This document shows, one piece after another, positions 16,634-24,249 of a stretch of DNA of 49,334 nt. The position numbers were made by a program, and so were the translations under genes. Source of the stretch: Chloroflexota bacterium (GTDB lineage Bacteria; Chloroflexota; Chloroflexia; Chloroflexales; Roseiflexaceae); assembly GCA_030550675.1 (NCBI GenBank), contig JAUQOW010000004.1, forward strand, positions 1 through 49,334, given 5' to 3'. The notes under the pieces are model-generated. The model made no database searches. It had not been told where the DNA came from and worked only from the letters and a program-made list of their open reading frames with translations. Numbering within the stretch: the stretch's first letter is position 1; every line of letters begins with the position of its first letter.

Positions 16634-16770
16634 AGGTTGAAGGTTGAAGGTTGAAGGTTAAGCGTTTACAATGGGCTGAAAGCGGTAAGGTTGAAAATTG
16701 GACAACGGCTCTCAGTTCTTGGTTCTTGGTTCTCAGTTCTTGGTTCTTGGTTCTCAGTTCTCAGTTCTTC
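16621..16770. repeat. GGTTGAAGG and TTCTTGGTTCTCAG microrepeats at converging gene ends
   Basis: Five GGTTGAA iterations (16621-16660) overlap the stop of the RraA-like gene. TTCTTGGTTCTCAG iterations (16712-16770) form the last coding part of the minus-strand gene that ends at 16666. The second word is the complement of the one at 10495-10535. Confidence 0.7.
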
Positions 16771-18198
16771 CCCCCACAACCGCATCTCGTTGAACGCCGC
16801 TCCCGCAATGCGTCCCCGCTCATCGAGGCGCGCCGATTTGCCGCTGACTTTCCACTCGCTGCTGAAGTTGCCAAGCCCGCCGATAAGATGTGGCGTCCCG
16901 CGCGCGTCGAACGTCGCGTAGACCATGAAGCGGGCATGCGCGTCGATAGAGTGCAACGCATGCGTCGCCCACGGCAGGCACATATCGACCCGATACGTCG
17001 CGTCCACGTACCGCTGGACGATCCACGGTTCGCCCTGCGCCAACCGTGACTTCACAAACGCGAGCGTCTTCTGCGCCGCACTGCGTGAGCCGTTGAGCCG
17101 CAGCACGCCGCGTCCCTGGCTGTAGTACGCGCCGCTGCCGCTCCCGCATTTCAGCACCAGTAATCGTCGGGCAGCCGTCGAGAGACCCGCAAGATCGTCG
17201 ATGGTTCGGACTGCATGCAACTGCTGTCCAATGACGTCCGGGACGCCATCAGCCAACACGCTGAGATCGACTTCTTCGCCGTGCAGCAATGCCACGGCGC
17301 CGAACAGCGCGCGCAGCCGGTCGTCGAAGAGACGGGCATAGTCTGGCATGAAGGGGAGCGCCATGCCCCATTTCTGGCGGTACACGTAGTTAAGCGGCGT
17401 CTCGATCCAGAGCCTGCCATCAACCGCGGCTCGCGCCAGGCGAACGATCATGGTTGGCGCAATCACCGGCAGGAGTTCCTGCGCATACAGGAAATCGATG
17501 GGCAACAACCTGCCTTTGTCGGCGACCATGAACCTGCCGTTGCGCTCGATAATCCGCCGCGCTCCCTCGCGCCGGTCGAAAACGATGTAGCGCATGCCCT
17601 GCCCATCGCAGGTGCGTCGCAGGTAGTGCTCGCCGCGATACCAGACGGACCGAACCGGATTGACCGCAACCGGGTCATTGCCGCTGCTCTGCCGGATCAT
17701 CTCACAGAAGGAATCCGCCAGATTGCCGGGACTCCCGGCAGTTGCAGGCACAACTGCCGCGTGAACATCGTGGATGCCCGCGAAAAGTCCCAGCCCGCCC
17801 GATTTCCATTGCACCTCAGCGACAATGCGTTGCGGACCGATTGCGACATAATCGACCCGACAGAAACGCGGCGTGAGACCCGCAGCAAGCGTTGTGCGCT
17901 GCGCCTGAATCTCTTCGGAGCAGAGACCATATTCACACAGCCTGGCGATCCAGCGCGGCGCCTCGCCAGCCAGCGACGCGCGGTACAGATTGTTCCAGGC
18001 GCGGTAGAAGCGCCAGAGCAGCGCAAGGTCGTCGGTGAGCGCCATGGTCGCGGCGTGATCGACCACGCACGAGGAGGGGGTGATCAGCGACGCATAGTTG
18101 TCGCCTGAGCCGTAGATCAGACCGCTGGCGGTCAGGGCGTTGGCAAGCTCGCCAGCCACCTGATCAGCGTGACGCGCAATTGTTATCGAACCCGTCAT
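16666..18198 (-). CDS. Unassigned protein, possibly ATP-grasp-like; last gene of the cupin/AsnB operon
   Basis: 510 residues. Middle and C-terminal motifs suggest an ATP-grasp-type nucleotide site: LVLKCGSGSGAYYSQGRGVL (a Lys followed by a glycine-rich loop), then EPWIVQRYVDATYRVDMCLP (hinge-like) and later GGLGNFSSEWKVSG. The upstream segment RYIVFDRREGARRIIERNG plus FLYAQELLP recalls circularly permuted ATP-grasp ligases. None of this is conclusive. The last 35 or so residues (ELRTENQEPRTENQEP...) are translation of a DNA microrepeat and probably not functional. A 153-bp gap with a strong hairpin separates it from the AsnB-like gene, so it may be expressed at a lower level or on its own. 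Confidence 0.6.
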   Translation of the reverse strand: MTGSITIARHADQVAGELANALTASGLIYGSGDNYASLITPSSCVVDHAATMALTDDLALLWRFYRAWNNLYRASLAGEAPRWIARLCEYGLCSEEIQAQRTTLAAGLTPRFCRVDYVAIGPQRIVAEVQWKSGGLGLFAGIHDVHAAVVPATAGSPGNLADSFCEMIRQSSGNDPVAVNPVRSVWYRGEHYLRRTCDGQGMRYIVFDRREGARRIIERNGRFMVADKGRLLPIDFLYAQELLPVIAPTMIVRLARAAVDGRLWIETPLNYVYRQKWGMALPFMPDYARLFDDRLRALFGAVALLHGEEVDLSVLADGVPDVIGQQLHAVRTIDDLAGLSTAARRLLVLKCGSGSGAYYSQGRGVLRLNGSRSAAQKTLAFVKSRLAQGEPWIVQRYVDATYRVDMCLPWATHALHSIDAHARFMVYATFDARGTPHLIGGLGNFSSEWKVSGKSARLDERGRIAGAAFNEMRLWGEELRTENQEPRTENQEPRTESRCPIFNLTAFSPL

Positions 18199-18351: not shown

Positions 18352-20082
18352 CTACAGATTGAACGCGCGCAGCCACAGTTCCAGCGTGATCAGCAGCCAG
18401 ATGAATTGCCCGTGGCGCCGCCAGACGAGACCGCGGTAGCGCATCCAGTCGCGCACTACATGTTCGCGGAACAGACCGCGCGCCCGCGCCTGCGGTCCCA
18501 GCAGCAGATCGTTCGCCAGATCGCGCAGCGGACCGTGCAGCCAGTACTGCACCGGCATGAGCATGCCGCTCTTTGGACGGTGCAGAATGGTTGGCGGCAG
18601 CAGGTCGCGCACCGCCTGTTTCAGCACCCATTTTTCCTGCAAACCGCGCAGTTTGAGCGCAGGGGGCACGGCAAACGCAGCATCGACCAGCGGGAACGCG
18701 AAGAGCGGCGAACGTCCTTCGACGCCGCTCGCAGCCGTCATCCGTTCGACCTTCGGCAGAATATGGTGCGCGCCCTTGGTGCGCAGGTTGGTGTACAGCA
18801 GACGATTCAGAAACGAGGTCATGCGCGGCGATTCGAGGTATGGCTGCACGTGGCGCTCCAGCGGCGGCGCGTCGCGCAACGCATTGAGCACGTCGGCAGT
18901 GAGCAGGAGATCAAGCTGGTCGTAGCATTTCTGGTATGAGTGCAAATAGGCGCTGGCGCGCGCCGCCGGGTTCGGGTCGTCGCGGTGGAACTCGAAGGCG
19001 AGCATCGGCTGGTTCTTGGGACCGCCAAACACCGGGTCGCCGCCCTCGCCGTTCAGAATGACCGACAGACCATCACGCGCCGCGGCGCGCGCCAGGAGCA
19101 GGTTCGGCGTCGTCAACGGGTCACCAACCGGGCAATCGAGCAGCGCCACGGTCTCTGCCAGATGATCGGCAATGGTTTTCCCGTCGAACGTCAGCACCGT
19201 ATGCTCCGTACCGCAGTGCGCGGCGACCAGCCCGGAATACGCCAGCTCATTGGGGAATTCTTTACCGAAGTTGATCGCATACGTGCGCACGGGTTGGTTG
19301 TGCAGCCGTGCTGCCAGGGCAGTGACCAGGCTGCTGTCGATGCCGCCAGAGAGAAAGACGCCGACCGGTTGTCCGGCGGGTAGACGCGTGGCAACTGCCT
19401 GTTCGAGCAGATCGCGCAAACGACGGGCGTACGTTTCCGCCGGAAGCGTGTCGTCCCACTCACCTTCGCGCGGTTCCCAGAACATCTCTTCGTGGCAGGC
19501 GCCGTTAGCGCACAAACGGAGACAGCGCCCAGGCAGCATCTCGAACACGCCATCGATCAACGTCTCGTTCCCTGGCAGGTAGGCGAACGTCAGGAAGGCG
19601 CGCACGGCGTTCAGATTGAGGCGCGCATTCAAACGGGGCCAGGCGCGCAGCGCGCGCAGCGACGCCGACGCTGCCCAGTGGTCGCCAGCGCGCGCGTAAA
19701 AGAGCGTGCGCGTCCCGACGTGATCGCGCACCAGCACCAGGTCGTCCCCGTCGAGGATGGCGAGCGCAAACATGCCATCAGCGGCGGCGAAGCCGCGCGC
19801 GCCATGCCGGGCATACAGGTGCAGCAGGATCGCACCGTCGGCGCAATCGTCCGGCAGGGCGACGCCATCGCGCCTCAGCGCTTCAAGAAGTTCCCCGCGA
19901 TTGAACAGCGACACAGCGCCGACTGCAACCAGATGATTGGCGGTGAAGACGCGCGTATGGCATCCGTCAGGGAGCGCGCCGAGCGCCGCGCGATGCCTGG
20001 ACGCGACAGGCGCTGCGCCCATTGCCGCGAGATCGCATTCCGCTTCATCAGTGGTTAGCGCTGCACACAACCAGCCACTCAT
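18352..20082 (-). CDS. Asparagine-synthetase-like amidotransferase/ligase lacking the glutaminase Cys
   Basis: 576 residues with the two-domain plan of glutamine-hydrolysing asparagine synthetases. The N-terminal Ntn-hydrolase-like domain keeps LFNRGELLEAL, ADGMFALAILDGDDLVLVRD and GTRTLFYA, but the protein begins MSGWLC: the catalytic Cys2 of MCG-type enzymes is absent. The synthetase domain has the PP-loop VGVFLSGGIDSSLVTALAA (SGGIDSS at 245-251) and NGEGGDPVFGG, where usual enzymes have D-E instead of D-P. It should adenylate a carboxylate, using ammonia or another amine rather than glutamine, as in beta-lactam synthetase or lasso-peptide cyclases. Its ATG overlaps the preceding stop by 4 nt. 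Confidence 0.85.
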   Translation of the reverse strand: MSGWLCAALTTDEAECDLAAMGAAPVASRHRAALGALPDGCHTRVFTANHLVAVGAVSLFNRGELLEALRRDGVALPDDCADGAILLHLYARHGARGFAAADGMFALAILDGDDLVLVRDHVGTRTLFYARAGDHWAASASLRALRAWPRLNARLNLNAVRAFLTFAYLPGNETLIDGVFEMLPGRCLRLCANGACHEEMFWEPREGEWDDTLPAETYARRLRDLLEQAVATRLPAGQPVGVFLSGGIDSSLVTALAARLHNQPVRTYAINFGKEFPNELAYSGLVAAHCGTEHTVLTFDGKTIADHLAETVALLDCPVGDPLTTPNLLLARAAARDGLSVILNGEGGDPVFGGPKNQPMLAFEFHRDDPNPAARASAYLHSYQKCYDQLDLLLTADVLNALRDAPPLERHVQPYLESPRMTSFLNRLLYTNLRTKGAHHILPKVERMTAASGVEGRSPLFAFPLVDAAFAVPPALKLRGLQEKWVLKQAVRDLLPPTILHRPKSGMLMPVQYWLHGPLRDLANDLLLGPQARARGLFREHVVRDWMRYRGLVWRRHGQFIWLLITLELWLRAFNL

Positions 20083-20687
20083 CCGAAATCCCCCACATCG
20101 CCAAAGTCGCCGCCGTCGAACGGCGACTCGCCGTCGCTCCAGTCACCGTTGTCGGATGGCGCCCCCTCGCCGACCGGTTCGGGCTGATCCCAATCGCTAT
20201 CGCTGTAGCTGCTACTGCTGCTGTCCCAGTCCGAGCCGCCTCCCCATCCTCCGCTGCCGCTGGTTTGCTGCTGCTGTTGTTGCAGCAACTTCTGGCGCAG
20301 CAGTTCTTCCTCTTCAGGGCTGAGATACTCCGGCGGCAGCACCAGCGAACCGAGCAGAAACCCCGCGCCCATGCCCATCAGGATCGCGCCGACCCGTCCG
20401 CCAAAAGATGTCTGGTTGACGGTCAACACCTGCCCGCGATGCCAGAGGGTGCGGCCATACCCCTGTTCGCGCGCATAGATGACCCGTCCCTGATTGAAGG
20501 TGCGTTTGAGGATCCCGTCGCCGAGCAGTTCATCGATTCCGGCAAACCCCTGGTTATCGCGCCACTCGACCCGACCATCCGGCAGGCGACGCCGCCATTC
20601 GTACCGTCCGTCGCTGAAGGCGCGACGAACGCTGCCATCGGCGAGCAGCTCGTCCTGATATGTGATCACGTTTGGTTGTTGTTGCAC
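20079..20687 (-). CDS. Membrane-anchored protein with Trp/Asp/Gly/Ser-rich tail
   Basis: 202 residues in three parts. Residues about 1-90 hold repeated short beta-hairpin-like units (LADGSVRRAFSDGRYEWRRR, then LPDGRVEWRD and GDGILKRTFNQGRVIYA), reminiscent of MORN/YD-type repeats. Next comes one glycine-zipper-like membrane helix (VGAILMGMGAGFLLGSLVLP). A short charged coil (LSPEEEELLRQKLLQQQQQQ) is followed by a disordered tail of G, S, D and W ending GDFGDVGDFG. No known family. Middle gene of the operon, 15 bp after the preceding paralogue and overlapping the AsnB-like start, so its product probably works with them. The tail could be a modification substrate or scaffold; that is speculation. 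Confidence 0.7.
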   Translation of the reverse strand: MQQQPNVITYQDELLADGSVRRAFSDGRYEWRRRLPDGRVEWRDNQGFAGIDELLGDGILKRTFNQGRVIYAREQGYGRTLWHRGQVLTVNQTSFGGRVGAILMGMGAGFLLGSLVLPPEYLSPEEEELLRQKLLQQQQQQTSGSGGWGGGSDWDSSSSSYSDSDWDQPEPVGEGAPSDNGDWSDGESPFDGGDFGDVGDFG

Positions 20688-20702: not shown

Positions 20703-21662
20703 TCATTCGGGCCAGCTCATATAACTGATGGTGCGCCATCGGCGCAGACTGGAAAACCAGGATTCGCGGCGTCGCGCCGGTCGGACGACGCGATGGAGCG
20801 TGCGCAGCAGCGTCACCGGGCGCAGCGCAGCGACTTCGGCGCGATAGCCGGTGCGCAGCCAGGCGCGTTCGATCAGGTTCAGCGATACAGGAAGATCTTC
20901 CAGAGGCTCAGAGCGGCGGACGGCGAACAGGTGGCGACGCAATGCGTGCATTGGCGTCAATCCTAACGCCCTCACCCGGAAGCCGCGCGGCAGATCGAGC
21001 AACGCTGCGGCGTCGGCGGCAAAGCGCAACCCCTCCGGGCTGGCATCGTGCAGCAGCAAAATACGTGGAACCGGAGCGCGCATCAACATCGCAATCAGCG
21101 CATCCGGCAGCGGCGACGCTTCTTCCAGCGCCAGGATTGCGCAGGACATTTCCATGTGCAGAAAGTTCGCGCGCAGCATCCGCGCAATCGATGTGTCCTG
21201 ACAGATAAGCGCATATGCCAACCCATAGTCGTAGAGGTCTGGCTCGCGATCATCGAGCGCCAGAAAGGGCGGTACGTCGTCGGAAAGCAAACCCGGAGGG
21301 TCGCCGTGACGCGCGCGATATGCGGCAAGCGCGTCGTCGAACGCGGTTTCCGTCAGCGGCGGCGTAAGCGTGAAGGGCAGCCGCCATACGAGCGACGGAA
21401 CGCTCATCAGCAGCGATGCGCTCATCGTTCCGATCCAGAGCGGATGCGGACGCCGCAGTGCAAGGGTCAGCGACGAGCCGACGGCAGCGGTTGTCTGGCT
21501 GGCGGCGTCAGGGATGCGTGATGGCGGCAGCAGGGTGCGGCAGACTTCGTAGTAGAGCTGGCGGCGGGTGTAGCGCACCCCGCCCATCCCCGCGTGCGCA
21601 ATGCTGCGCTCCAATGCGGTATCGAGATTGCTATGGCGCATTCGCGTGCCGAATACCATCAT
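20703..21662 (-). CDS. Paralogue of the upstream zinc-ribbon membrane protein (HDAS motif, no zinc ribbon)
   Basis: 319 residues. VRYTRRQLYYEVCRTLL near the N-terminus aligns with YRYTPAQLAYFVFRREL of the neighbour. VPRILLLHDASPEGLRF aligns with LPLLLIHDASVAGCL, VRALGLTPMHALRR with VIDLGLRPRHV, and both proteins end with the same M-S/T-W-P motif. One or two hydrophobic segments (about residues 75-95) may be membrane-embedded. The strand-HDAS-x-x-G unit recalls Toprim or Rossmann-like cores, but I cannot confirm this. Start ATG 21662 overlaps the upstream TGA, with GGAG before it; a longer in-frame extension is a shadow of the neighbour. Function unknown. Confidence 0.75.
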   Translation of the reverse strand: MMVFGTRMRHSNLDTALERSIAHAGMGGVRYTRRQLYYEVCRTLLPPSRIPDAASQTTAAVGSSLTLALRRPHPLWIGTMSASLLMSVPSLVWRLPFTLTPPLTETAFDDALAAYRARHGDPPGLLSDDVPPFLALDDREPDLYDYGLAYALICQDTSIARMLRANFLHMEMSCAILALEEASPLPDALIAMLMRAPVPRILLLHDASPEGLRFAADAAALLDLPRGFRVRALGLTPMHALRRHLFAVRRSEPLEDLPVSLNLIERAWLRTGYRAEVAALRPVTLLRTLHRVVRPARRRESWFSSLRRWRTISYMSWPE

Positions 21663-22840
21663 GCCGCTCCTTGTCGCTGGGGCCAGGTCATGAACCCGAT
21701 GGCGCGCGCCTCCGCCTGCGCCCGCGCCTCCGGGTCCACAGGCGCAGACGCGCGTTGTGCAGCGGCAACCGGTGTGGACGTCAGCCGCTCCACGGCGCTG
21801 GTCACAACATTGACCAGTCGGGCTGGGGGAATGAAGAGCGCTGAGGTCACAAAACCCTGGCGCAGCCACTCAAGCTCTTCCTTCTCCAGGGTCAATCCTC
21901 CCGGCGCCTTGACCCGACGTTCGAGAAGATCCATCAATTCTTGCGGCGTCTCCTCGCGTTTCCACGGCAAACGCTGCTGCTTCACATGGCGCGGACGCAG
22001 TCCCAGGTCGATCACGCGATGGTTCGGCGACAACCCCCATTTGCCCGGCAGCAGCGCTGGCAGCAGACACCCGGCCACGCTGGCGTCGTGGATCAGCAGC
22101 AGCGGCAGGCGCGGATTCTGGCGTAACAGCGCCAGAATGTGTTCATCATCGGCGGAAAATGGTCCGTCGATAGAGAGCAGCGCCAGACCCAGGCGCTGCG
22201 GCAGTCCATTCGCCCGCAGGCAGTCGAGCACATCGGCGACCGGCGAGGCGAGCACGGCGCGCACCCGCGACGGCGGCGACTGAACCTGACGCAGCGCAGC
22301 AATCTTCTGATAAGCGACCCATCCAGGCAGCGGTCCATGCACGCTCGCCCAGGGAGCGACATATGTTGTCTCAAAAGACTCTATCACCGGCAGAAGACGC
22401 TGGTACGGATTGGATGACTTAACTGACCGATAATAGAGTCCCGCTGCTATCAACCCTATCACAGCGCCGATCACGAGCGCTATCATCGCAGAAGCGAGCG
22501 AGCGTTCCTGCACAAAGAAAAGCAGCATACATGCGAGAGCAGTCAAGAAAACGAAACCGAAGATGATCGCAGCGACCACCGCCGACGGTTCAGACCACGA
22601 ATATGATGTCTTATAGATGGACGCGAGTTCGCGTCGGAATACGAAGTACGCCAGTTGCGCCGGGGTGTAGCGATACGTTCCCTGATTGCTCAAACGTTCA
22701 GCGAGACCGCGCAGCCGCAGGTCGCTCATCTTCAGCGTGTTTTCGCGCGGCTCAAGGGCGAACGGCTTCTGGCACTGCGGGCACTTTTTATCGCGGCGCT
22801 CACGGTATTTCAGTTCAAAAAGGCAATGCGGGCATTTCAT
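21659..22840 (-). CDS. Zinc-ribbon membrane protein with HDAS motif
   Basis: 393 residues. It opens with a four-cysteine zinc ribbon (MKCPHC...KKCPQCQKPF), then LRGLAERLSNQGTYRYTPAQ with LAYFVFRREL, two membrane helices (VVAAIIFGFVFLTALACMLL and MIALVIGAVIGLIAAGLYY), and a cytoplasmic C-terminal domain with LPLLLIHDASVAGCLLPALL and EELEWLRQGFVTSALFIPP. It ends IGFMTWPQRQGAA. The following gene encodes a paralogue sharing all blocks except the ribbon. ATG 22838-22840 abuts the stop of the cupin gene. The family seems uncharacterised; the ribbon and helices suggest a membrane-associated scaffold or regulator. Confidence 0.78.
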   Translation of the reverse strand: MKCPHCLFELKYRERRDKKCPQCQKPFALEPRENTLKMSDLRLRGLAERLSNQGTYRYTPAQLAYFVFRRELASIYKTSYSWSEPSAVVAAIIFGFVFLTALACMLLFFVQERSLASAMIALVIGAVIGLIAAGLYYRSVKSSNPYQRLLPVIESFETTYVAPWASVHGPLPGWVAYQKIAALRQVQSPPSRVRAVLASPVADVLDCLRANGLPQRLGLALLSIDGPFSADDEHILALLRQNPRLPLLLIHDASVAGCLLPALLPGKWGLSPNHRVIDLGLRPRHVKQQRLPWKREETPQELMDLLERRVKAPGGLTLEKEELEWLRQGFVTSALFIPPARLVNVVTSAVERLTSTPVAAAQRASAPVDPEARAQAEARAIGFMTWPQRQGAA

Positions 22841-23527
22841 TCAGGCGCCTCCCTCCAGCACGCCTGCGAGTCGCCGCAGCAGCATCGCCAGGCGCTCGCG
22901 CAGCGACACTTCGACGTGGACTCGATCAACCGCCATTTCCGCTTCGAGCTGCCGTAGCGCTGTCACTAAACGCGCTGCCGCCTCATCGCCGCTGCGCGCC
23001 CGTTCCTCTGCCATCGCCGCCGTGATCGCGTAGTCGTCGTGGTCGATGCCCATGCCGGTGTTGGCGATGACCAGCGGCAGCGGGTCGTCGGCGCGGTTGT
23101 TGAACGAGTGCGGCATCAGCGCCGGAATGTGGAGCAGCGAGCCGGGAATCAGCCGCACATGAGCGACTGCTTCGCGCTCGTGATCGTACAACCCGCACGA
23201 CGCATACCCCATGCTCAGCACAAAGTGCTCCGCGCCATGGGCATGCGGCGTAAAGGCGCTGTGCGGGCGAACGAATCCGAGTTTATACGTGGCGTTTGCC
23301 GGGTTTTCGTCCGAGGTTTTGGCGGAGCCGATCAGGTACTGCGTGTACTGCCCGCTATCAATGAACCGCAACATATTGGCGCGATCCGCTGCGCGCCGGG
23401 TCGGATCCAGGCGACGGATGCAGTCCTTGCTCACAGCGTAGACGATCCCATCGGGGCTGAAAACATACAGGGTTGCACCGCGTGGAAGGGTGATTCTGAG
23501 GCGCTCGAGATATCTGGCACGATGCAT
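22841..23527 (-). CDS. Cupin-domain protein, first gene of the operon
   Basis: 228 residues. The cupin core is visible: motif 1 FTPHAHGAEHFVLSMG supplies two His and one Glu for a metal, and motif 2 IPGSLLHIPALMPHSFNN supplies the last His. An N-terminal extension of about 80 residues (LRITLPRGATLYVFSPDGIV) and a C-terminal helical segment of about 55 residues rich in Arg and Glu flank it. It could be a small-molecule-binding or dioxygenase-type protein; the metal ligands look intact. Its stop directly precedes the next ATG, so it leads the operon. It is divergent from the yefM/yoeB module with 148 bp between start codons. Confidence 0.8.
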   Translation of the reverse strand: MHRARYLERLRITLPRGATLYVFSPDGIVYAVSKDCIRRLDPTRRAADRANMLRFIDSGQYTQYLIGSAKTSDENPANATYKLGFVRPHSAFTPHAHGAEHFVLSMGYASCGLYDHEREAVAHVRLIPGSLLHIPALMPHSFNNRADDPLPLVIANTGMGIDHDDYAITAAMAEERARSGDEAAARLVTALRQLEAEMAVDRVHVEVSLRERLAMLLRRLAGVLEGGA

Positions 23528-23616: not shown

Positions 23617-23658
23617 TTGACAAGGATCGGGATTTATTGTACAGTATTTCTGTACAAT
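23617..23658 (+). promoter_or_regulatory. Promoter and palindromic operator of the yefM-yoeB module
   Basis: TTGACA (23617-23622), 17 bp, TACAGT (23640-23645). A perfect 9-bp inverted repeat ATTGTACAG-TATTT-CTGTACAAT (23636-23658) overlaps the -10 and the start point, as expected for autorepression by a YefM/YoeB complex. AGGAGACC lies before ATG 23676. Confidence 0.8.
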
Positions 23659-23675
23659 ACGTTCAGGAGACCGGT

Positions 23676-23963
23676 ATGCCTGTTCAGACGACCTACACGC
23701 AGGCGCGCGCTCGACTGGCGGCGTTGCTCGACGAAGTGGTCAACAACCGTGATATTGTCATCATTCAGCGTCGTGGCGGCGAGGATGTCGCTTTGATTGC
23801 CGCCGACGAATTGCAGAGCCTGCTTGAAACAGTGCATCTGCTCCGTTCGCCAGCCAATGCAGAGCGCTTGCTCGCAGCGCTTGCGCGGGCGCGGCAGCGC
23901 AGCGGAACGCCGCAATCTGTCGATGATCTGCGCCGTGAGGTAGGGCTTGCCGAGAACGAGTAA
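23676..23963 (+). CDS. yefM: YefM/Phd-family antitoxin
   Basis: A 95-residue antitoxin that binds and neutralises the downstream toxin and represses its own operon. TYTQARARLAALLDEVVNNR and VIIQRRGGEDVALIAADELQ are the classical YefM N-terminal DNA-binding fold, followed by SLLETVHLLRSPANAERLL, the toxin-binding part. ATG 23676 is chosen over earlier in-frame codons because AGGAG precedes it, and because the promoter and operator occupy the DNA just upstream. The toxin gene starts 34 bp after its stop. Confidence 0.92.
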   Translation: MPVQTTYTQARARLAALLDEVVNNRDIVIIQRRGGEDVALIAADELQSLLETVHLLRSPANAERLLAALARARQRSGTPQSVDDLRREVGLAENE

Positions 23964-23997
23964 GAATCTCCCAACCCAGGGAACCCAACGGGACGCT

Positions 23998-24249
23998 GTG
24001 TTTCAACCAGAGTTTCGTGATGATCTGCGCTACTGGGTTGAGAAGGACAGGCGAACCGCATTGCGCATCCTGACATTGATCGAAGCCGTTCTACGCGATC
24101 CTTTCACCGGTATTGGCAAGCCGGAACCCCTCAAGTATCTGGGTGCGGATGTATGGTCACGGCGAATCACGCAGGAACATCGTCTTGTATATGTCGTCAG
24201 CGACGACCGCATCGATTTTCTTCAAGCGCGCTACCACTACACTGATTGA
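23998..24249 (+). CDS. yoeB: YoeB/Txe-family ribosome-dependent mRNA interferase toxin
   Basis: An 83-residue RelE-superfamily toxin, normal YoeB length. It starts at GTG (VFQPEFRDDLRYWVEKDRR), contains GKPEPLKYLGADVWSRRITQ followed by EHRLVYVV, and ends ARYHYTD. The Glu of GKPEPLK, the Arg-rich SRRI loop and the terminal His-Tyr are the residues used for catalysis in YoeB. A longer reading from 23947 would overlap the antitoxin and add residues the family lacks. The pair is complete and looks functional. Confidence 0.92.
   Translation: MFQPEFRDDLRYWVEKDRRTALRILTLIEAVLRDPFTGIGKPEPLKYLGADVWSRRITQEHRLVYVVSDDRIDFLQARYHYTD

Follow-up and report, generated by a model that had tools for sequence, protein, structure and literature searches.

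A tandem pair of probable topoisomerase VI-A/Spo11 relatives in an operon with an AsnB-like ligase in Chloroflexota

The A subunit of topoisomerase VI (Topo VI-A), Spo11 and JetD are usually taken as a single DNA-cutting lineage. Among the described relatives, MksG has retained its metal site and is without the 5Y-CAP tyrosine (PMC10123090), and Mini-A and Topo VIII are presented in part of a further source as type IIB relatives that are mostly encoded by mobile elements (PMC8185306). Here, we describe two adjacent genes on a 49,334-nucleotide stretch of a Chloroflexota genome (contig JAUQOW010000004.1, positions 1 to 49,334; i.e., the window), the products of which, P0001 (393 aa) and P0002 (319 aa), are very probably the arms of an old tandem duplication within an undescribed bacterial family that descended from, or shares its ancestor with, Topo VI-A (Spo11 superfamily). 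Both open reading frames are real and lie on the reverse strand at the positions given by the first-pass annotation of this DNA (Table 1), with the P0001 stop and the P0002 start overlapping as ATGA. They belong to a same-strand run of six genes, i.e., cupin-like P0004, P0001, P0002, P0003, AsnB-like P0005 and P0006. Literature searches returned no description of such a family, and searches with P0001 and P0002 against Pfam, NCBIfam, PADLOC, PHROGs and (as single sequences) the Protein Data Bank (PDB) yielded nothing usable.

The first-pass annotation, made from the DNA alone, had aligned both proteins by eye and proposed them to be paralogues, which was borne out by all three comparisons made. 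BLASTP aligned them at 28% over 181 aa (E-value of 4e-7), their Smith-Waterman score was 125 whereas 500 shuffles of P0002 averaged 38.6 and never exceeded 63 (z of 14), and pairwise alignment of their profiles with hhalign (21 rows each) yielded a probability of 99.9% and an E-value of 2.3e-34 over 303 columns. The residues shared by the pair were subsequently scored in a family table of 56 distinct members (21 P0001-type, 22 P0002-type, nine f15 and four single-gene members), which excludes copies that are truncated or broken and genes viewed a second time (i.e., the P0001-type pieces of L007 and L018, L045, the broken copies in L058/L062, and the P0001-type views in L015/L017). The HDAS-x-x-G core, on which the proposed paralogy partly hinged, proved to be conserved in relatives (H in 56/56, D in 47/56, A in 54/56, S in 42/56 and G in 54/56), as was the W of the W-L-R-x-G block (56/56), the His before the Asp and this Trp being the most conserved residues of the family. 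The shared C-terminal M-S/T-W-P motif was likewise found within the last 40 residues of 21/21 P0001-type and 22/22 P0002-type proteins (including two P0001-type proteins and one P0002-type protein from Streptomyces), and in 0/13 family members outside these two tandem clades. At the DNA level, the pattern encoding this terminal motif occurred 16 times in 12 genomes, of which 14 times at this locus, compared to nine occurrences of a reversed control pattern.

A zinc ribbon and membrane helices had been attributed to only one of both paralogues, and this distinction was upheld. The CxxC...CxxC pattern is present in P0001 only, where all four cysteines are invariant (21/21), and P0001 displays two strong hydrophobic segments (residues 92–110 and 115–133) compared to none above threshold in P0002. 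In a Chloroflexus genome, a broken second zinc-ribbon paralogue lies directly ahead of the intact one (L062:1202-2395).

The hydrophobic strand ending in HDAS had further been likened to the acidic turn of Toprim domains, and predicted structures supported this likeness and narrowed it to the Topo VI-A/Spo11 type. In the AlphaFold models (built from 19-row alignments, with a mean predicted local distance difference test score (pLDDT) of 79.5 for P0002 and 86.8 for P0001), strands and helices alternate, and HDAS closes the third strand. Comparing these models with solved Toprim folds revealed Topo VI-A (1d3y) as the best match of both, with a Z-score of 10.6 over 157 residues and a root-mean-square deviation of 4.2 for P0002 (1000 chains aligned), and a Z-score of 11.6 over 165 residues and a deviation of 4.4 for P0001 (989 chains aligned). 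The next ranks were taken by MksG (8b7f; Z-scores of 9.2 and 10.4 for P0002 and P0001, respectively), JetD (7til; 7.9 and 9.3) and Spo11 (8uru; 6.5 and 8.3), and further down the lists additional Toprims were mixed with unrelated folds. Moreover, rows 1 to 8 of a Foldseek search with P0001 were all Topo VI-A (best E-value of 4.8e-4). Since 8b7f and 7til rank directly after Topo VI-A in the fold lists, the pair could be read as a nuclease of the JetD/MksG type (i.e., a Wadjet relative) rather than as a relative of Topo VI-A. This reading is very unlikely, however, as the Pfam matches within the family were to TOP6A-Spo11 and to no JetD families, the scanned neighbours (cupin, P0003, AsnB and P0006, and not JetABC or MksBEF) included no condensin-like partner, and the metal site is not intact.

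At the sequence level, a profile restricted to the Toprim domain retrieved two matches only from 177,635 PDB sequences, both of them Topo VI-A and both in register, placing HDAS on D-x-D and a C-D or C-Q position on the catalytic Glu. The Pfam family TOP6A-Spo11_Toprim (PF21180) touched the single-gene relatives L023 (E-value of 3.6e-4), L022 (0.0059) and L046 (0.033), with no match for P0001 or P0002, and was the most recurrent Pfam family among the 12 members tested (4/12). Because a TOP6A-Spo11_Toprim search of 301 Chloroflexota genomes found none, three haloarchaeal plasmid copies of Topo VI-A served as comparators. Against these, hhalign recovered the same register (E-value of 8e-4), and the HDAS block picked their DGDP (p-value of about 0.06).

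A further correspondence, which the first-pass annotation had missed, concerns the N-terminal RYT-x-x-QL-x-Y common to both proteins, as this corresponds to the tyrosine motif of Topo VI-A. For a block of 16 columns around RQLYY, the best place was STLRELYY in each of the three haloarchaeal proteins (p-values of 0.005–0.0085), although these amount to about one observation since the three are 76–93% identical to the first. The Arg-then-Tyr arrangement of Topo VI-A was found in P0002 only (Arg34 and Tyr38, spaced i, i+4), P0001 having Tyr65 without the Arg, and in M. mazei Topo VI-A the same spacing separates Arg102 of the clasp from the catalytic Tyr106 (PMC13040014). Across the family, the Tyr was kept in 34/34 readable members outside the P0001 clade (f15 9/9, single-gene 4/4 and P0002-type 21/21, one truncated P0002-type row being left out) versus 8/21 inside it, and an Arg or Lys was present in 28/34 versus 1/21, respectively. 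A profile of the C-terminal block retrieved no Topo VI-A from the PDB.

The modest E-values of single sequences, together with the Rossmann-like designs that also appear in the structure lists, might alternatively point to convergence, with HDAS residing in an ordinary Rossmann-like domain that has no relationship to Toprim. We consider this highly improbable, given that Topo VI-A, MksG/JetD and Spo11 lead both fold lists, that the Toprim profile singled out Topo VI-A from the PDB in register, and that the tyrosine motif matches too. The case for a Topo VI-A/Spo11 identity of P0001 and P0002 is strong.

The metal site of the pair deviates from that of Topo VI-A. As already proposed from the DNA, HDAS stands in the place of D-x-D, with its Asp aligning to the first Asp and its Ser to the second. 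This second position holds Ser in 42/56 members (19/22 of the P0002-type) and Asp in 7/56, and D-x-D is kept in some relatives (HDCDPAG in L050, HDADPRG in L053 and HDTDAKG in L023). In place of the catalytic Glu, 9/9 f15 and 3/4 single-gene members have Asp, 19/22 P0002-type proteins have Gln and 17/21 P0001-type proteins have Pro. The triad of Glu plus D-x-D thus corresponds to Gln155/Asp206/Ser208 in P0002 and to Pro200/Asp252/Ser254 in P0001, and the family was therefore filed as a variant of the Topo VI-A superfamily and not as a member enzyme. Judging from these replaced residues, the window pair is most readily viewed as Topo VI-A-like and unlikely to cut DNA by the known mechanism. By eye, Glu276 of P0002 was considered as the equivalent of M. 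mazei Glu342, an equivalence we do not claim because the profile did not recover it. N-terminal to the Toprim domain, the models show two helices followed by the helices of a hairpin (with a pLDDT of 51–75 past residue 40 in P0002), a region that the structural comparison with Topo VI-A hardly covered; where a membrane segment is present, it follows the tyrosine motif and precedes the Toprim domain.

It could nevertheless be argued that the pair is an active, membrane-anchored DNA-cleaving enzyme, in which P0002 would provide the Tyr and the Asp, His and Ser of the Toprim pair would bind the metal, with cutting near the membrane serving uptake or plasmid control. The Tyr and Arg that P0002-type proteins and single-copy relatives retain would fit such an enzyme, as would the relatives combining D-x-D with an Asp for the Glu, and the D-x-N reported for plant SPO11-2 in a portion of PMC11302465. 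This alternative nonetheless appears unlikely in view of the Gln, Ser and Pro replacements listed above, models in which no full winged helix is visible, and a gene run in which the identified neighbours are not DNA-processing genes (PADLOC giving 0 matches for 10 proteins). A role in defence was dropped as well, because there was neither a PADLOC match nor a defence neighbour.

Searching for relatives revealed P0002 matches in 23/100 related genomes and P0001 profile matches in 26/400 Chloroflexota genomes, i.e., 16 Chloroflexia, G158 and nine genomes of family f15. The class-level genomes G083 and G091 encode one gene with a zinc ribbon, membrane helices and a single Toprim-like domain, and the f15 proteins are without zinc ribbon. 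A gene near two f15 relatives (L072 and L073) looks by eye like methylmalonyl-CoA mutase. Outside Chloroflexota, two of 72,556 plasmid records matched (Gloeothece PCC 7822 and Streptomyces NBC_01237); a scan of viral contigs with P0002, a phage scan with a relative and a plasmid scan with an f15 member each yielded none. In a tree of 55 members (L014, although in the family table, having been dropped), four clades received at least 99% bootstrap support each, with the P0001-type and P0002-type proteins forming separate clades (support of 100/100 and 100/99, respectively). The Streptomyces plasmid genes fall within the P0001-type clade and at the base of the P0002-type clade, so that the duplication predates the split between those operon lineages.

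Within the 100 relatives, a BchL match over cut-off was found in 23/23 family-positive versus 28/77 family-negative genomes (Fisher p-value of 1e-8, uncorrected for kinship). Likewise, G083 and G091 have both the protein family and BchL, and both are absent from G088, G094 and G097, their sisters within the same taxonomic family. The pattern is broken by G158 and the nine f15 genomes, and Streptomyces presumably falls outside it as well. The link with photosynthesis thus stands in Chloroflexia, but no photosynthetic function is claimed, since kinship was uncorrected and the pattern fails in G158 and f15.

Homologues of P0003 and AsnB were found downstream of P0002 at 18/21 loci. On the Streptomyces plasmid, the gene order reads cupin, P0001-type, P0001-type, P0002-type, P0003 and AsnB; this whole operon, with its two zinc-ribbon copies, occupies L077:5611-12065 of a 1.6 Mb linear replicon. 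On the Gloeothece plasmid, a single-gene relative has an AsnB gene on either side, with a pyridoxal phosphate (PLP) decarboxylase also next to it, the order in G083 is AsnB, single gene, P0003 and AsnB, and the relative in G158 adjoins AsnB. An N-terminal Cys nucleophile is a feature of glutamine-dependent asparagine synthase. When protein starts were taken mechanically as the first start, an N-terminal Met-Cys was present in 0/13 linked AsnB proteins, with the PP-loop SGG[ILV]DSS kept in 13/13, and the natural reading is therefore an ATP-dependent ligase using another amine. P0005 thus probably makes amide bonds.

The tail of P0003 is variable and rich in Ser, Gly and Asp, and ends in FG in 20/21 complete homologues (the exception being L013, with SDSG). 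An SFG end is also present on two Toprim proteins, L046 and L076, at loci with no identified P0003. Such fixed ends following variable linkers suggest recognition by a partner. Alternatively, a variable tail with a fixed end might denote the precursor in a ribosomal peptide operon, with P0005 as the cyclase and the Toprim-like pair as an accessory for precursor binding or transport. In line with this, the models matching P0005 include a lasso cyclase alongside asparagine synthase (none of them reaching its cut-off), and a putative-bacteriocin Pfam model touched the tail of the Streptomyces P0003 (E-value of 2e-4, also below cut-off). However, this bacteriocin match falls in low-complexity sequence, the half of P0003 (some 200 aa in total) outside the tail is conserved, and no gene for a leader peptidase or PqqD-like protein was identified in the run, leaving a peptide operon with little likelihood.

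Table 1. Positions of the P0001/P0002 pair, its motifs and the other genes of the run within the window.
Feature	Position	Strand	Basis
P0001: zinc ribbon, degraded tyrosine-motif helix, membrane hairpin, Topo VI-A-like Toprim domain, C-terminal FMTWP	21659..22840	-	Translation, alignment, model
P0001 zinc ribbon (Cys3, Cys6, Cys20, Cys23)	22772..22834	-	Four Cys invariant in 21/21 P0001-type rows
P0001 YTPAQLAY, counterpart of YTxRQLYY (Arg lost, Tyr65 present)	22646..22669	-	Alignment
P0001 two predicted transmembrane segments (residues 92-110, 115-133)	22442..22567	-	Hydropathy 2.8 and 2.6; long helices in model
P0001 Toprim-like domain (residues 177-354)	21779..22312	-	VIA-align Z 11.6 to 1d3y over 165 residues; Foldseek top 8 Topo VI-A
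P0001 HDASVAG (residues 251-257)	22070..22090	-	Translation, family table
P0001 C-terminal FMTWP	21680..21694	-	Translation, motif counts
P0002: tyrosine-motif helix pair, Topo VI-A-like Toprim domain, C-terminal YMSWP	20703..21662	-	Translation, model
P0002 RQLYY (residues 34-38)	21549..21563	-	Alignment, block comparison with Topo VI-A
P0002 Toprim-like domain (residues 127-297)	20772..21284	-	VIA-align Z 10.6 to 1d3y over 157 residues
P0002 HDASPEG (residues 205-211)	21030..21050	-	Translation, family table
P0002 C-terminal MSWP	20709..20720	-	Translation, motif counts
P0004, cupin-like, opens the run	22841..23527	-	Weak Pfam cupin matches (best E 0.015); Streptomyces plasmid homologue at same place (E 4e-62)
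P0003 (202 aa): repeat-like head, one hydrophobic stretch, Ser/Gly/Asp-rich tail ending in DFG	20079..20687	-	Translation
P0005, AsnB-like ligase; PP-loop SGGIDSS intact, without N-terminal Cys nucleophile	18352..20082	-	Pfam Asn_synthase E 7.1e-81
P0006 (510 aa), closes the run	16666..18198	-	No Pfam, NCBIfam, PADLOC or PHROGs match

By their coordinates, the P0005 start overlaps the P0003 stop. P0006 and four of its homologues had no Pfam match, and by eye its C-terminal half resembles ATP-grasp enzymes. Divergent from the operon, a Phd/YefM-YoeB toxin-antitoxin pair is located at 23637-24249.

Our best explanation of these observations, which is tentative when identity and mechanism are taken jointly, starts from a family that very probably kept the Toprim fold and the catalytic-tyrosine helix and in which, for most members, a membrane hairpin lies between the two, at the place of the rest of the Topo VI-A winged helix. 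After duplication, P0001 very probably kept the membrane anchor and zinc ribbon and lost the Arg of the tyrosine motif, and P0002 kept the Arg and Tyr with no clear membrane hairpin. Both proteins might then pair through their Toprim domains into a heteromer that is tethered to the membrane, no longer cuts DNA via the Topo VI route, and provides scaffolding or regulation for a modification unit that the operon encodes. In this unit, P0005, devoid of the glutaminase Cys, would activate a carboxylate and join it to an amine, and the conserved C-terminal ends of the pair (M-S/T-W-P) and of P0003 (D/S-F-G) might be docking or substrate tails. We regard such a membrane-tethered, non-cleaving heteromer serving the modification unit of its operon as a doubtful proposal in its own right. 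An improbable extension would give the Topo VI-A/Spo11 fold the role of membrane module in the ATP-dependent tagging of proteins, in which P0005 would activate the fixed -FG end of P0003 (or, at loci lacking P0003, that of the Toprim protein) and join it to an amine in an E1-like manner, with the M-S/T-W-P tails as a docking code and the operon moving between phyla, at times on plasmids.

Several observations weigh against the Topo VI-A ancestry and modification-unit role proposed here. Both AlphaFold models rest on 19 sequences mixing both paralogues and are therefore not independent, and Foldseek gave no match below 1e-3 for P0002, with Topo VI-A coming first at an E-value of 3.4e-3, level with an unrelated glycosyltransferase. 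Taken match by match, the sequence support for Topo VI-A is weak: all PF21180 matches are below cut-off (the best, L023, scoring 21.0 versus 24.1 bits), the E-values of both PDB matches of the Toprim-only profile are 0.059 and 0.3, and the hhalign probability against haloarchaeal Topo VI-A is 24.6%. Neither did the N-terminal-block profile find Topo VI-A in the PDB, nor did the full-width N-terminal profile single out the tyrosine motif. Regarding the operon, the AsnB link is absent at 3/21 P0002 loci, and AsnB was not seen by eye beside L072 and L073. Association of the proteins and a substrate role for P0003 are both putative.

If true, a branch that has a membrane hairpin in place of most of the winged helix, together with a zinc ribbon and a degraded metal site, and that neighbours an amide-forming enzyme in three phyla, would be an example of this fold abandoning DNA cleavage, and would reveal the residues that persist for other reasons (i.e., the invariant His and the Tyr motif). 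Our analysis also gives a gene set to proteins without a family in Pfam, NCBIfam, PADLOC or PHROGs, and in Chloroflexia offers a biological setting, as the family tracks a bacteriochlorophyll-synthesis gene (BchL).

Compared with known systems, P0005 shares the PP-loop synthetase domain of asparagine synthase B and its ligase relatives and differs from the former by having no N-terminal Met-Cys. Mini-A and Topo VIII, compared by description only, resemble the family in their association with mobile elements, and the portion of PMC8185306 used here mentions no membrane anchor or zinc ribbon for them. MksG/JetD likewise carries a Topo VI-A-type Toprim domain outside topoisomerases and comes second in the fold lists; however, the combination of a metal site with no tyrosine, as given for MksG in PMC10123090, is reversed in the family described here. 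No Topo VI-B partner was noticed in the operon, the genome not having been searched with a B-subunit model. In contrast to Topo VI-A and Spo11, the window proteins have the Glu and second Asp replaced and display no visible full winged helix in their models, P0001 adds a zinc ribbon and membrane hairpin, and an AsnB-like gene is their neighbour. With Topo VI-A and Spo11 the pair nonetheless shares its closest Toprim fold, a RELYY-type tyrosine motif N-terminal to the Toprim domain, and the first Asp of D-x-D.

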